A DNA stretch of 64,000 nucleotides from Vibrio natriegens NBRC 15636 = ATCC 14048 = DSM 759 (lineage in GTDB: Bacteria > Pseudomonadota > Gammaproteobacteria > Enterobacterales > Vibrionaceae): the NCBI RefSeq assembly GCF_035621455.1, contig NZ_CP141822.1, positions 372,001 to 436,000 on the forward strand. Reading direction: 5' to 3'. Below, in pieces: positions 8,744 through 15,964 of this stretch (positions are counted from its first letter, which is position 1; every line of letters starts with the position of its first letter). The notes beneath the pieces were generated by a model. That model ran no database searches. It saw nothing but the letters and a program-made list of their open reading frames with translations, and was not told the origin of the DNA. Position numbers and translations under genes: made by a program.

Positions 8744-9892
8744 TTACAGCTGGTTGTAGAGTGCCTCAATATGAGCCACCTCAGCGCTGTCTTCTGCAAG
8801 ACCTGTGTATTTCGCGAGCGTTGGCTTCACGCCGACTTCTTTTAATGAAGTTTGTAATTCAACCGCTTGAGGATCGGTGTCGTTAGTGTACTTCAACGCC
8901 GCCGCTATCCCTTTTAAAAGTGTTTGATTTTCAGTGCCATATTCAATTGTACCGAGTAATGGCTTCACTAATCTATCATTTGCACCTAATTTGCGAATTG
9001 GCTGACGTCCAACGCGGTCAACTTCATCAACTAAGTATGGATTGGCAAAGCGGCCCAGAATCTTCTCGATGTAGGCATTGTGCATGTCGCGGTCGAAGCC
9101 ATAACGACGAATCAACACTTCACCACTCTCGATCATGGCCTGTTTTACTTCTGCCTGAATTTCAGGATCTTCAATCGCTTCTCGAATGGTGCGGTGTCCT
9201 TTCAAGCAGCCCAAGTAAGCCGTAATACAGTGACCGGTATTTAGGGTGAACAGTTTACGTTCCACAAACGCCATCAGGTTGTTGGTCTTTTCCATCCCAG
9301 CGATGTCCGGGATTTCCCCTTTGAATTGCTGCTCGTCAACAATCCACTCGCTGAAGCTTTCTACCGTTACTTCCAGTGGGTCATCGTTGGCAGCTTCTGC
9401 TGGTGGCACGATACGGTCTACTGCAGAATCGACGAAGCCAACGAGCTCATCGGCTTTTGCGTGCAGTGACGCATCAAGATGTTTGTACACTTCGCCCTTT
9501 AAATGGGTCGTCCCGCGAACCATGTTCTCACAGGCGATGATGTTCAGTGGTGATTCATTACCCGCTTCGAAACGTTTGGTGATGCCGGTTGCGATGGTTT
9601 TCGCAATGATGTCCAGCACGTTTGGACCAACAGCGGTTGTCACTAAATCGGTTTTTACGATGCGGTCAATCACGTCTTCACTTGCTGAGTTAACTGCGGT
9701 GACATGCGTGACTGTGTCGATTTGGCACTCCGTGCCCACCACTTTAACTTTGTATTCTTGTTTATGACTGAGTTGGTCTACCAACGGGGCATCAACGTCA
9801 GCGAAAGTGACCTCGACGTCTGCGTCTGCTAAAAGTTTACCGATGAAACCACGACCAATGTTACCTGCGCCAAAATGAACTGCATTTTTCAT
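8744..9892 (-). CDS. mtlD: Mannitol-1-phosphate 5-dehydrogenase
   Basis: Oxidises mannitol-1-phosphate to fructose-6-phosphate with NAD+, feeding imported mannitol into glycolysis; cytoplasmic. At 382 residues it is the usual size. The N-terminal Rossmann fold begins [20 protein letters not shown]; the long-chain polyol dehydrogenase catalytic part includes [20 protein letters not shown] and [27 protein letters not shown] precedes the ATG. It follows mtlA after 112 bases that contain a small hairpin. Confidence 0.97.
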
Positions 9893-10004: not shown

Positions 10005-11954
10005 TTAAGCGGCTTGTTCGCGGCCAAGGATGTTGAGGATCTCTTCTACATCCGTAGTGCTGGTTAGCTTCTCAATTGCTTCTGGCTCATCGAGTGCGTT
10101 CGTAATGGTGGTAATAACTTGGATGTGCTCATCATTTTTAGCGGCAATGCCGATAACCAGTTTCGCTACATCGTCTTCGTCTTCAGTAAATTGGATACCC
10201 GATGGGTATTGGCAGATAACAATGCCAGTCTTTTTAACGCGATCTTTCGCTTCAATCGTGCCGTGTGGCACCGCGATAGATTCGCCAAGGTAAGTCGGAA
10301 CCAGTGCTTCACGATCAAACATCGCCTCTACGTATTCTGGTTCAACGTAGCCAAGTTCAACTAACTTGTTGCCCGCAAAGCGAATCGCTTCTTCTTTGTT
10401 AGCCGCGCTTAAACCTAAGTGGATGTTTTCACGTTGAATCTGGAATACAGATGGTTGCTGTTGTTCAAAATTGTCGTCGTTTGCTGCAAGAACCGATACT
10501 TTTACCATCTGATCGTCATTGGCAGATGAAGTTTGTGCCGCCAGCAGTTTGGTGACGAGTTGGTTGTACATTTCGCTGTCCAGGAAATTAGTCAGTGAAA
10601 TGTGGTGTGCGTTAGGAGCATGCTTACGTGCACGATCCGTCAAATCTTTATGAGTAATCACGATATCTGCACTCTCTGATAAATTGTTAATAGCAAGGTT
10701 AGTGACGTGGATGTTCAGACCTGCGTCCTGAACTTTCTTGCGTAGCATGCTCGCACCCATCGCGCTTGAGCCCATGCCGGCATCACAAGCGACAATAATG
10801 CTTTGAACTGTCGCAAGGTCTACGTCGCCTTTGCTTTCACTGTTTACCGCTGCATTGTTTTTTGATGCAGATTTCATGTCTTTCATTTGTGACGTTGCTT
10901 TTTCTAGCGCTGCTTTATCGCCGTCTTCTTCTGTCGATGTTTGAGTCTTCATTAACAGAGATGCTACGGTGAACGACACGCCCGCTGCCGCCGCGATAGA
11001 GGCTAGAACACCAACGATCGAGCCTTTTTGCGTCATCAATAGTACCGCGAAGATAGAACCTGGAGACGCTGGAGAAACGATACCTGCGTTGAACATAGTG
11101 AGAACGAACACACCTGTCATACCACCTGCGATAGCCGCTAGGATGAGGCGTGGGTTCATCAGAATGTATGGGAAGTAAATCTCATGGATACCACCAAAGA
11201 AGTGGATGATAGAAGCACCACCAGCAGTCTGACGAGCAGTACCTTTGCCAAACACCATGTACGCCAGAAGAATACCTAGACCCGGACCTGGGTTTGCTTC
11301 AATCAGGAAGAAAATAGATTGACCTGTTTCTGACGCCTGTTGAATGCCTAGTGGTGAGAAGATGCCGTGGTTAATTGCGTTGTTCAGGAACAGAATCTTC
11401 GCTGGCTCAACAAAAATAGAAGTCAGAGGTAGAAGGTGCGCTGATACAAGGAAGTTTACGCCTGCTGCTAAAGCACCAGAAAGTACTTTTACAAAAGGAC
11501 CTATCAGGAAGAAAGCAAGAATGGCACACAGCATACCGATGATGCCTGCAGAGAAGTTGTTTACCAACATCTCAAAGCCACTTTTCACTTTGCCATCGAT
11601 GTAGTTGTCGAATTTTTTAATCGCCAAGCCGCCCATTGGACCGACGATCATCGCTCCCATGAACATAGGGATGTCTGTACCGACAATCACGCCCATTGTG
11701 GTGATTGCGCCGACTACAGCACCGCGATCGCCGCCGACTAATTTACCACCGGTATAACCGATAAGTAGTGGCAGCAAGTAAGTGATCATAGGACCAACCA
11801 TTGAAGCCAAAGTCTCATTTGGCAACCATCCGGTTGGGATGAATAGTGCAGTGATAAAGCCCCACGCGATAAATGCGCCAATGTTAGGCATTACCATGTT
11901 AGACAGAAAGCGACCAAAATTTTGTATCTTGATCTTAGCATCTGGTGATATCAT
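10005..11954 (-). CDS. mtlA: PTS mannitol transporter, EIICBA
   Basis: Imports mannitol across the inner membrane with phosphorylation to mannitol-1-phosphate. The 649-residue protein carries all three domains in the E. coli order: EIIC (about 1-340, with the GGIHEIYFPYI signature near 255-264), EIIB (about 380-475, phospho-cysteine 390 in IIVACDAGMGSSAMGAS), and EIIA (about 508-648, phospho-histidine 564 in SIAVPHGTIEAKD). The ATG at 11954 is preferred because GGGGA lies about six bases upstream and because it gives the normal MtlA N-terminus (MISPDAKIKIQNFGRFLSNM). The linker between C and B is rich in Lys/Ser/Asp. Confidence 0.96.
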   Translation of the reverse strand: MISPDAKIKIQNFGRFLSNMVMPNIGAFIAWGFITALFIPTGWLPNETLASMVGPMITYLLPLLIGYTGGKLVGGDRGAVVGAITTMGVIVGTDIPMFMGAMIVGPMGGLAIKKFDNYIDGKVKSGFEMLVNNFSAGIIGMLCAILAFFLIGPFVKVLSGALAAGVNFLVSAHLLPLTSIFVEPAKILFLNNAINHGIFSPLGIQQASETGQSIFFLIEANPGPGLGILLAYMVFGKGTARQTAGGASIIHFFGGIHEIYFPYILMNPRLILAAIAGGMTGVFVLTMFNAGIVSPASPGSIFAVLLMTQKGSIVGVLASIAAAAGVSFTVASLLMKTQTSTEEDGDKAALEKATSQMKDMKSASKNNAAVNSESKGDVDLATVQSIIVACDAGMGSSAMGASMLRKKVQDAGLNIHVTNLAINNLSESADIVITHKDLTDRARKHAPNAHHISLTNFLDSEMYNQLVTKLLAAQTSSANDDQMVKVSVLAANDDNFEQQQPSVFQIQRENIHLGLSAANKEEAIRFAGNKLVELGYVEPEYVEAMFDREALVPTYLGESIAVPHGTIEAKDRVKKTGIVICQYPSGIQFTEDEDDVAKLVIGIAAKNDEHIQVITTITNALDEPEAIEKLTSTTDVEEILNILGREQAA

Positions 11955-12481
11955 AACAATTCCCCGTTCGATGTTCTGATGAATATTGTTGTCGTAAACG
12001 GTTCGCCAAAACCGCTTGTTTGATTGCTTAGTACCCAATCAATTTATCACACAATTTCCAATTAGAACTGACAACGGGCTTTTCGTGATCTACACCCGCA
12101 CTTCTTCAGATAAAAAGCATTTTTTAAGTGATGGCGATCAATTTATTGATATGTAACTTAATAACAAAATGCAGGTTTTAAATCTGTCAATAAAAATCTT
12201 AGTGATCATGTCGATCTTATTACAAATTTGAATTGAAAATATAATGTGATCAAAATCACTTATGATTTATTTCTGGGATCGAATTAAATATTTCGATCGA
12301 TCAATGTCACATTTTGTCTTGGTTTGGTTGTTGGTAAAAATGTGACCTGCGTCTGGTTGTGGTTTTTTGAAATTTTGTAACGAGATATGCTGCGCAATAT
12401 CAGCACATAGCGACTGATTGGCTGGGCAAATGAGTGCGATGTCAGAAATATCGGAAAATTTCGGTTATATTTCTTACAAAT
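11955..12481. other. Long mtlA upstream region
   Basis: About 530 AT-rich bases with no convincing protein gene. It contains the CRP site at 12245-12260, further GATC/TGTGA-like sequences (around 12131-12145, 12201-12215 and 12303-12309), and should encode a long mtlA 5' leader if the promoter is near the CRP site. In V. cholerae a small antisense RNA (MtlS) is made from the strand opposite the mtlA leader. The equivalent here would be on the plus strand between about 11960 and 12210, but I could not identify its promoter or terminator. Confidence 0.55.
12245..12260. promoter_or_regulatory. CRP-cAMP site upstream of mtlA
   Basis: TGTGA-TCAAAA-TCACT matches the CRP consensus TGTGA-N6-TCACA at nine of ten conserved positions. 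It lies about 290 bases upstream of mtlA. On the minus strand TAAGAT (12220-12215) follows at roughly the distance expected for a -10 element of a class II promoter. Catabolite control of mannitol uptake is well established in the family. Confidence 0.75.
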
Positions 12482-14287: not shown

Positions 14288-14333
14288 ATTTACCTCAGCG
14301 TGCAAGTTTCTAACTGGATAGTAGGAATTACAG

Positions 14334-14340
14334 ATGACAG
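14334..14340 (-). promoter_or_regulatory. Possible PhoB half-site upstream of olsF
   Basis: On the minus strand CTGTCAT, the consensus Pho-box half-site, ends 47 bases upstream of the gene. A second half-site at the required 11-base spacing is poor (CTGTTTT lies further upstream, out of register). Suggestive only, because homologues are phosphate-regulated. Confidence 0.25.
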
Positions 14341-14443
14341 TTCAGCGGCAAAACAGTGAGTCTTTGGTGACAAAAGGGTGACGATTTATTGAACGCTGAG
14401 GTTAGATTCAGAGGTCGGTGCGGAGTTTTTTATCCGCTTTAGT

Positions 14444-14472
14444 TGAGCTTATGCTATGGTAGCTAAAGCTCA
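14444..14472. repeat. Hairpin/operator in the olsF-deaminase gap
   Basis: TGAGCTT (14444-14450) pairs with AAGCTCA (14466-14472), and inside it GCTA pairs with TAGC around TGG, separated by a 2x2 internal loop. It lies 130 bases upstream of the deaminase gene between divergent genes. It may be an operator or part of the deaminase leader. Confidence 0.45.
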
Positions 14473-14528
14473 TTCTATGGGCTTATTACATGCCGTCATA
14501 TCGGTATTATTAATCAAATAAAATCACT

Positions 14529-14600
14529 CAACATCTTCTCACGTGAAGGTGTTGGTACAAGTCCGATTCCCCTGAAATGGTTGAAACGGCTAAGGATATT
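14529..14600 (+). promoter_or_regulatory. Structured 5' leader, candidate riboswitch
   Basis: CAACATCTTC (14529-14538) and GAAGGTGTTG (14545-14554) form a ten-pair stem with one G-U and a six-base loop. It is followed by TACAAGT, a second short stem (CC-G-ATT at 14563-14568 with AATGG at 14576-14580, one bulged G), then TTGAAACGGCT and the ribosome-binding site AAGGA. GTCC (14561-14564) can alternatively pair with GGAT (14594-14597) and hide that site. A compact two-stem leader ending at the ribosome-binding site is typical of translational riboswitches. The ligand class is unproven; the downstream enzyme points to a purine. Confidence 0.4.
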
Positions 14601-14605
14601 TATGA

Positions 14606-15964
14606 ATGGAAACAATCTGGATTAAGAATCCACTCGCGATTTACACTGGCAATGAGCAGGACGCTCGCGGAGGTCTGGTGATTCGCGGAAATAAAATTGT
14701 TGAGCTGGTGGCCCTTAATGCCACGCCTGATGTACAAGTCGACTCGGTGGTCAACGCCAGCCAGCACGTTATCACTCCAGGGCTAATCAATGCCCACCAT
14801 CACTTTTATCAAACTTTGACTCGCGCTTATCCCGATGCTCTCAATAAAGAGCTGTTTCACTGGTTGAAAAGCCTTTATCCGGTGTGGGCGAACCTTGATC
14901 AGGAAATGATGAGTGTCGCCACTGAATTGGCTTTAGTTGAGCTTATGCGTTCAGGGTGCACGACCGCTTCGGATCATCACTACTTATTACCCAATGGTCT
15001 GGAACATGCCATCGATCTGCAAGTTGAAGCTGCACACAGCCTTGGCGTACGCGCTATTTTTACTCGGGGTTCAATGAGTTTGGGAGAAGATCAGGGCGGT
15101 TTACCGCCAAGGCATACTATCCAAACAGAGCAAACGATAGTCGATGACAGCAAAAGACTGATCAATGAATATCACCAAGATCATGATGGTGCGATGATTC
15201 AAATTGCGCTTGCGCCATGTTCCCCATTCTCGGTGACCACGGATCTGATGAAAGAGACTGCGCGAATCGCTCAAGATGAGAATGTTATGGTGCATACTCA
15301 CTTGTGTGAAACCATTGATGAAGAGAACTTCTGTATCAAGCAGTTTGGATTACGTCCGGTCGATTACCTTGAAGATGTTGGCTGGTTAAACGAGCGGACC
15401 TGGCTGGCTCATGGTATTCATTTTAACTCTGAAGAGATTCTACGATTAGGTAAAGCGGGCGTTGGGGTCAGTCATTGTCCGACATCCAATATGATGCTGG
15501 CCTCTGGTATGTGTAAAAACTTGGAGCTTGAACAGGCCGGTGTGAAAGTTGGCCTTGGCGTGGATGGTTCTGCCTCAAACGACGGCTCCAATATGATTGC
15601 TGAAGTCCGCATGGCGATGTACCTGCAACGCCTTCAGTATGGCTCAGCAAAAGTAACGCATTTTGATGCTCTGCGCTGGGCGACAAAAGGTTCTGCTCTT
15701 GCGATGGGGCGACAAGATATTGGAGAACTAAACATCGGTTATCAGGCTGACATTGCCATGTTTAAGCTGGATGATATTCGCTTCTCAGGGAGTCATGATC
15801 CGCTGGCGGCTTTACTGCTATGTGGCGCACAACAGGCTGACCGAGTGATGGTAGCTGGCCAATGGCGGGTCCATGATGGTGAAGTGATCGGTGTGGATTT
15901 ACAGGACTTGATGGTTCGTCATAGCCGCGCCGCGAAGCGACTGGCAGAGCTGTCCGCCAGTTAA
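14606..15964 (+). CDS. 8-oxoguanine deaminase (amidohydrolase family)
   Basis: A 452-residue metal-dependent amidohydrolase. The N-terminus (WIKNPLAIYTGNEQDARGGL) and overall pattern match 8-oxoguanine deaminases, which hydrolyse 8-oxoguanine to urate and ammonia; other members of the branch act on s-triazines. Metal ligands are visible: HHH at 64-66 in LINAHHHFYQT (the HxH motif), the His in MVHTHLCET, the His in WLAHGIHF, and the Asp in GLGVDGSASNDGSN. Cytoplasmic; probably purine salvage or detoxification. It stands alone between terminators. AAGGA lies nine bases upstream; another ATG four bases earlier, in another frame, opens only a seven-codon peptide. The exact purine substrate cannot be proven from sequence. 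Confidence 0.87.
   Translation: METIWIKNPLAIYTGNEQDARGGLVIRGNKIVELVALNATPDVQVDSVVNASQHVITPGLINAHHHFYQTLTRAYPDALNKELFHWLKSLYPVWANLDQEMMSVATELALVELMRSGCTTASDHHYLLPNGLEHAIDLQVEAAHSLGVRAIFTRGSMSLGEDQGGLPPRHTIQTEQTIVDDSKRLINEYHQDHDGAMIQIALAPCSPFSVTTDLMKETARIAQDENVMVHTHLCETIDEENFCIKQFGLRPVDYLEDVGWLNERTWLAHGIHFNSEEILRLGKAGVGVSHCPTSNMMLASGMCKNLELEQAGVKVGLGVDGSASNDGSNMIAEVRMAMYLQRLQYGSAKVTHFDALRWATKGSALAMGRQDIGELNIGYQADIAMFKLDDIRFSGSHDPLAALLLCGAQQADRVMVAGQWRVHDGEVIGVDLQDLMVRHSRAAKRLAELSAS

Follow-up and report, generated by a model that had tools for sequence, protein, structure and literature searches.

Does the leader of the 8-oxoguanine deaminase gene of Vibrio natriegens carry a regulatory RNA and, if so, of what kind? 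The enzyme encoded here destroys oxidized guanine, and leader RNA may set the amount of it that is made. In the window, by which we mean the whole 64,000-nt stretch of DNA that was analyzed (contig NZ_CP141822.1, positions 372,001 to 436,000), an earlier note based on the letters alone had placed a candidate purine-sensing riboswitch directly in front of this gene. The candidate was centered on a ten-pair stem with a six-base loop and was suggested to belong to the NMT1-type class or to be a relative. We examined this proposal by comparison with the leaders of related genes, by folding, and by scans with covariance models.

Results

The deaminase gene and its surroundings

The assignment of the gene to 8-oxoguanine deaminase was upheld, the score of its product exceeding the cut-off of 532 bits for the profile concerned (Table 1). 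Pfam detected amidohydrolase domains in the protein and nothing else. A divergent olsF-like gene, whose best NCBIfam match is under its own cut-off, lies upstream of the deaminase gene, and a terminator-like hairpin lies downstream. A consensus promoter was looked for on the plus strand of the leader and none was found. By eye, the motif TATGCTATGKT was seen at 14446-14464 inside a varying inverted repeat (AGCT..AGCT in the window, GTCT..AGAC in locus L005), and this stretch could be a promoter region or operator. Elsewhere in the window, the small RNA MtlS (RF02268, 118.9 bits), which we take to be antisense to the mannitol transporter gene, was matched at 11960-12085 of the plus strand, overlapping the start of a long reading frame on the opposite strand (10005-12038).

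A conserved 38-nt element at the ribosome-binding site

Positions 14480-14640 were searched against 296 Vibrionaceae genomes. In most genomes, the strong leader matches started at 14559-14570, within the final ~45 bases ahead of the start codon, and not at the ten-pair stem. The coordinates and the stem picked in the earlier note were thus displaced from the conserved element, which is the 38-nt core listed in Table 1; the second, short bulged stem described there proved to be the conserved feature. The core was found in 25 distinct versions with zero indels. These versions were gathered with a regular expression that is blind to other forms; the 60 leaders that were fetched by gene, blast match or model, without the core expression, all fitted that expression (60/60).

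Table 1 Features of the deaminase locus (positions of the window; base numbers in feature names are alignment columns).
Feature	Position	Strand	Basis or remark
Upstream ten-pair hairpin	14529..14555	+	z -4.8; leaders compared by eye
Conserved 38-nt RNA element, whole core (alignment columns 3-40)	14559..14596	+	25 ungapped versions in Vibrionaceae; covarying hairpin
5' hairpin strand: A4 G5, bulge W6, C7 C8, N9-Y13 of middle helix, C14, 15-17 of inner stem	14560..14573	+	Topology in 25/25 isolated cores
Bulged W6 between invariant G-C and C-G pairs	14562	+	U in window and 6/25 cores, A in 19
Invariant unpaired C14, opposite N25 W26	14570	+	25-core comparison
GNRA tetraloop	14574..14577	+	GAAA in window; GCAA, GAGA, GUAA in relatives
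3' hairpin strand, ends in invariant GGCU	14578..14591	+	N25 W26 at 14581-14582
Shine-Dalgarno AAGGA, directly 3' of hairpin	14592..14596	+	Invariant in 25/25 cores
8-Oxoguanine deaminase gene	14606..15964	+	452 aa; NCBIfam NF006055, 680.2 bits

Folded in isolation, the cores all adopted the same topology. The lower stem consists of A4-U35 and G5-C34 with the bulged A or U at position 6, and the middle helix contains 7 bp (7-33 to 13-27) with at most one mismatch. Above it, C14 faces N25 W26 in an asymmetric C/NW internal loop, and the inner stem (15-24 and 16-23, plus 17-22 where pairable) is topped by the GNRA loop. Invariant bases outside pairs are C14, G18, A21 and A36-A40, with W6 being A or U. 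In seven divergent leaders (L166-L172), the 7-bp middle helix is perfect and the GNRA loop is closed by a G-C pair. In 6 of 25 cores, U12 has a C as its hairpin partner and yet remains invariant, a hint of a second role for this base. The internal loop varies among the 25 cores (N25 is C, U or A; W26 is U or A), and as judged from this alignment the variable loop opposite C14 is unlike a strict binding pocket.

Two stretches had been taken to be conserved and single stranded. In TACAAGT, the AAG is (nearly) conserved but the remaining letters are not; in TTGAAACGGCT, GGCT followed by AAGGA forms an invariant block, but the rest varies, partly together with the partner strand. The ten-pair stem with its six-base loop is present, and the fold of 14526-14557 (-14.2 kcal/mol) is more stable than expected by chance (0/200 shuffles as stable), but the stem is clearly kept, by eye, just in the nearest relatives L003 and L004. 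This hairpin is accessory at most. A short upstream frame beginning at the ATG of AAATGG was also considered and was dropped because the base concerned (column 22) is A or C in many relatives.

Conservation relative to the permease neighbor

Over 46 loci (1035 pairs), pairwise identity, expressed as a gapped alignment score, was 0.89 for the motif, 0.48 for the 40 nt adjoining the core on its 5' side and 0.44 for shuffled sequence; the adjoining 5' sequence is not conserved. In 26 loci with a readable permease start, the values were 0.93 for the 40-nt motif stretch, 0.50 for the 40 nt 5' of the motif and 0.55 for the 40 nt that precede the permease start. The motif values of 0.93 and 0.89 are biased upward, since a pattern spanning most of the motif served to pick the loci. 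The count of occurrences given below (91/107) is free of this bias.

In 31 of the 46 loci, the next gene upstream, within 500 nt and in the same orientation, encodes a xanthine permease homologue; among the 15 loci with no permease call, at least 4 hold less than 600 nt of upstream sequence. Five of the upstream permeases were typed as xanthine permease by a TIGR03173 match over its cut-off. At the 31 loci, two genes of what appears to be an operon flank the element. The permease leaders (for example L064, L095, L076, L086 and L060) have hairpins of varying sequence directly before the permease Shine-Dalgarno sequence, and a conserved CTACGNAGTTTGTAGAAG is found within 110 nt of the permease start in 20 of 26 leaders. 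An Rfam scan of the permease leaders of five loci gave no match. This feature is possibly another leader element or operator.

Covariation and folding

Among the 25 cores, pairs 9-31, 10-30, 11-29 and 17-22 show changes on both sides. Doubly changed cells numbered 18, compared with 7.5 in shuffles (0/500), and the covariation score was 0.186, compared with 0.099 ± 0.011 in shuffles (0/500) and at most 0.084 in slid registers. The number of doubly changed pairs (4 versus 3.1; 154/500) and that of pair types (8 versus 8.3; 375/500) were not raised over shuffles. Given that related sequences can mislead a shuffle control, we also built a tree-aware null, in which each column evolved independently on a tree of 80 deaminases. 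The covariation score was then 0.218 versus 0.067 ± 0.035 for the null (0/1000), and the test limited to pairs that vary on both sides gave 4/1000. The share of paired cells was not significant against this null (114 and 225 of 1000), mainly because pair 9-31 is C-U in 52 of the 80 genes. An initial tree test that left the divergent leaders out gave a weaker result (6/300). RNAalifold applied to the 25 cores returned 8 of the 12 hairpin pairs unprompted. Covariation among orthologous leaders, to which the earlier note had pointed as a check, was therefore found, and its location is the core.

By folding energy alone, the window core was not above chance (z -0.71; 45/200 shuffles at least as stable). 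With flanks of 15 nt on the 5' side and up to 60 nt on the 3' side, the mean pair probability of the hairpin was less than 0.5 in 10 of 25 versions, with values of 0.09 for L042, 0.20 for L027 and 0.03-0.30 for the window clade. The evidence for the core hairpin is comparative, not energetic, and on this comparative basis we conclude that the leader holds a real conserved, covarying RNA element that is kept by compensatory changes. As looked for in a riboswitch, a conserved, covarying structured RNA lies in the untranslated leader of a metabolic gene, beside the Shine-Dalgarno sequence.

Pairings that would mask the Shine-Dalgarno sequence

The pairing of GTCC with GGAT, which had been thought to hide the ribosome-binding site, is not conserved, since U6-A40 forms in just 6 of the 25 distinct cores and no standard pair is available in the other 19. 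Two further alternatives were examined for covariation and none was detected. Pairing of U12-Y13-C14 with GGA (UYC:GGA) is available in 25/25 cores, with its middle pair 13-39 having a probability of at most 0.12; pairing of C15-C16-U17 with AGG (CCU:AGG) is available in 21/25 cores and broken in 4. In the window clade (L002, L004, L005 and L006), the ensemble is split between the hairpin (0.03-0.30) and a fold that joins column 16 to Shine-Dalgarno column 38 (0.49-0.72), whereas the probability of pair 16-38 is at most 0.02 in the other 21 versions. The first alternative proposed by RNAalifold, in which CCU pairs with AGG and GGYU with GGCU, was obtained from 33 early leaders without the divergent ones; it was dropped because CCU:AGG breaks in 4/25 cores and the 25 cores return the hairpin.

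Distribution of the element

A deaminase matching at E <= 1e-150 was present in 106 of the 296 Vibrionaceae genomes, at 107 places, and the element precedes it at 91 of these. The 91 comprise 83 places with a leader-sequence match (52 leaders read and 31 checked by match coordinates alone) and 8 of 23 further leaders that were scanned with R1, a covariance model made from 33 leaders. The other 15 leaders in the R1 scan were without the element, and the one remaining place (G081, a fragment) was left out of the leader examination. Of the 15 places lacking the element, 13 belong to other Vibrionaceae genera, with one genome contributing two, and the others are in two genomes of the window's genus, whose deaminase is just 61% identical. 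In Vibrio mytili (L006 / L058), the deaminase frame is broken by a stop approximately 350 residues in, and the leader element is intact.

Outside Vibrionaceae, 45 deaminase leaders were scanned and none carried the element, no score being above 10.8 bits. An exact-pattern scan of contigs from 84,980 species matched 47 stretches, 46 of which belong to Vibrio, Photobacterium or an Aliivibrio MAG. The deaminase frame starts right behind the element in 45 of these 46, the last being truncated where the fetched stretch ends. The remaining match, from Telluribacter, has no reading frame starting within 40 nt.

In the window's own genome, R1 found one strong site, the next match having an E value of 0.94. 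With more sensitive filters, 23 of 40 Vibrionaceae genomes gave an R1 match at E up to 1, and 17 had one strong site each. A second model, R2, was applied to 197 genomes, of which 54 had one match each, that in G156 being weak (E 0.017). A weak second match near the cluster in G232 (27.1 bits) has no frame of more than 80 aa starting nearby. Across 369 genomes of the class, R1 with strict filters returned the own site and three weak matches; the pattern with up to two mismatches returned, from 360 class genomes, the own site and five stretches at two mismatches, compared with six for a reversed control. In the scans made, the element was found at no gene other than that for the deaminase, and it appears to be present as a single copy per genome. 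Most riboswitch classes, by contrast, are restricted neither to one gene nor to one bacterial family.

Comparison with known RNA families

An Rfam 15 scan of the leader found no family matching the element and none at the ten-pair stem. Hits to STnc540, CRISPR-DR26, HepC_CRE and others at or near the motif were far below the gathering scores and were rejected. With the NMT1 model RF03054, stretches 14300-14750 and 14550-14612 gave no match at E up to 10. As a positive control, the same model gave three matches of 45-51 bits (gathering score 36) elsewhere in the window's genome (contig 1, 569400-572725; L294:6401-6472 -, 9306-9363 - and 9676-9726 +), and none over the cut-off in 14 control genomes. 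One of the three sites precedes the gene of a PRK12393-type amidohydrolase, a sister enzyme (604.9 bits against a cut-off of 543), and the other two precede, or overlap the first possible start of, genes for an NMT1/THI5-like ABC binding protein and a 2OG-Fe(II) dioxygenase-like protein. These gene types are among those listed for NMT1 RNAs in an excerpt of PMC7373994. It is therefore very probable that part of the purine oxidation in this organism is governed by xanthine-I riboswitches, and the element in the window is something else.

The structure pointed in the same direction. Excerpts of PMC7373994 and PMC8266621 describe NMT1/xanthine-I RNAs as having helices P1-P2a-P2b with a large conserved J1 junction; the 25-core consensus has just the bulge W6 and the C/NW loop. 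An identity with NMT1/xanthine-I was thus refuted at the level of sequence and structure. The earlier proposal of a candidate riboswitch or a relative is nevertheless reasonable, given that a conserved covarying RNA does lie beside the ribosome-binding site of a purine-oxidation gene. The three-stem junction, kissing loops and Rfam match that mark the purine riboswitch and its 8-oxoguanine, xanthine-II and 2'-dG variants were likewise not found in the element. No description of the element was recognized in the literature searched, which most subscription journals lie outside, and the element is absent from Rfam 15 and uncatalogued.

Discussion

We consider it quite possible, if just short of probable, that the element is a cis-acting RNA under ligand control that gates the start of deaminase translation. 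Whether the gene stands alone, as in the window, or follows the permease gene, the element occupies the ribosome-binding site, which suggests that it acts on translation of the deaminase and not on the start of transcription. Its stem ends directly at the Shine-Dalgarno sequence, so that ribosome access should depend on whether the hairpin is formed, lost or occupied. In the mechanism we propose, this hairpin in the mRNA would control the translation start of 8-oxoguanine deaminase, with its forming or breaking changing the access to AAGGA; in the window clade, the competing pairing would be that of CCU (14571-14573) with AGG (14593-14595). The balance might be set by a bound purine of the pathway, whether 8-oxoguanine, guanine, xanthine or urate, and a balance set in this way would constitute a very small translational riboswitch unrelated to the known purine classes. 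Given the purine gene context, a purine ligand would be the most economical trigger, and the element is plausibly a minimal purine riboswitch.

A narrower version of this reading is offered tentatively, as a possibility with the chances rather against it. It holds that the element represents a new class of purine-sensing riboswitch, consisting of one 38-nt GNRA hairpin, that arose within Vibrionaceae, senses 8-oxoguanine or its product urate, and controls just the deaminase. If true, it would add an independent solution to two others, the xanthine-I switches found in this genome and the 8-oxoguanine switches with a three-way junction that other bacteria have.

Because the internal loop varies and the element has a narrow distribution and was found at one gene, a constitutive element or a protein operator also has to be considered. 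A constitutive translation element would sense nothing; the hairpin would keep the Shine-Dalgarno region from other pairing, or serve as a ribosome standby site, with the deaminase being translated independently of the upstream cistron. Such a role would account for the position between permease and deaminase and suits the invariant AAGGA directly after the stem and the association with one gene, as well as the tolerance of most versions for a mismatch in the middle helix and the lack of strict conservation in the internal loop. However, A4 G5, C7 C8, C14, GGCU, the GNRA class and the fixed 38-nt length exceed what an insulator would seem to need, and variation is greater in the permease leaders of the same loci (identity 0.55). 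We regard this explanation as a serious one that is nevertheless somewhat unlikely.

Rather unlikely, in our judgment, is an operator to which an RNA-binding protein, perhaps the deaminase itself acting autogenously or a family-specific regulator, binds by way of the bulged lower stem and the GNRA hairpin and so blocks the adjoining Shine-Dalgarno sequence. A bulged hairpin of fixed length beside that sequence, its invariant lower stem, its narrow distribution and its single strong site per genome, within the scans made, are compatible with such an operator, whereas the deaminase has amidohydrolase domains alone according to Pfam, and 15 deaminase places in the family are without the element.

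A target site at which a small regulatory RNA pairs with the conserved leader might account for the invariant GGCUAAGGA over the ribosome-binding site, but such pairing predicts no compensatory changes between the halves of the hairpin, and we think this very improbable. Membership in the NMT1/xanthine-I class fits the gene context, in that NMT1 RNAs precede 8-hydroxyguanine-deaminase-like genes (excerpt of PMC7373994) and this genome has an NMT1 RNA before such a gene, but it is next to inconceivable given the RF03054 scans and the absence of the large conserved junction described for the class in excerpts of PMC7373994 and PMC8266621.

If the element does sense a purine, the leader would be a metabolite-binding RNA of very small size, and the response of these marine bacteria to oxidized guanine would become directly testable. 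If it senses nothing, it would still be an uncatalogued covarying RNA at the ribosome-binding site of a single gene in a single family, within the scans made, and a case of how such elements arise.

The coat-protein operators of RNA phages are bulged-hairpin translational operators bound by protein. They resemble the deaminase element in being a hairpin that carries a bulged base next to the Shine-Dalgarno region, and the deaminase element differs in having a GNRA loop and a second internal loop. The pnuC motif is set apart here by its description: it is associated with genes of NAD+ metabolism and has a pseudoknot at the ribosome-binding site, which is not part of the consensus of our element. 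An excerpt of PMC9295807 mentions a guanine-I variant that is selective for 8-oxoguanine; riboswitches of this type would serve the same chemistry but keep the three-stem junction, whereas the deaminase element is a single hairpin with no Rfam match. The NMT1/xanthine-I RNAs are similar in being hairpin-type leader RNAs of ~50 nt at purine-oxidation genes, including those for 8-hydroxyguanine-deaminase-like enzymes, and are described as controlling translation by sequestering the ribosome-binding site (excerpt of PMC7373994). They differ in that their loop is variable, according to an excerpt of PMC8266621, where that of the deaminase element is always GNRA, and in that the genuine NMT1 sites lie at other genes of the same genome. 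This genome provides a natural comparison between two related deaminases, since a genuine xanthine-I riboswitch precedes one of them and the unrelated element described here precedes the other.
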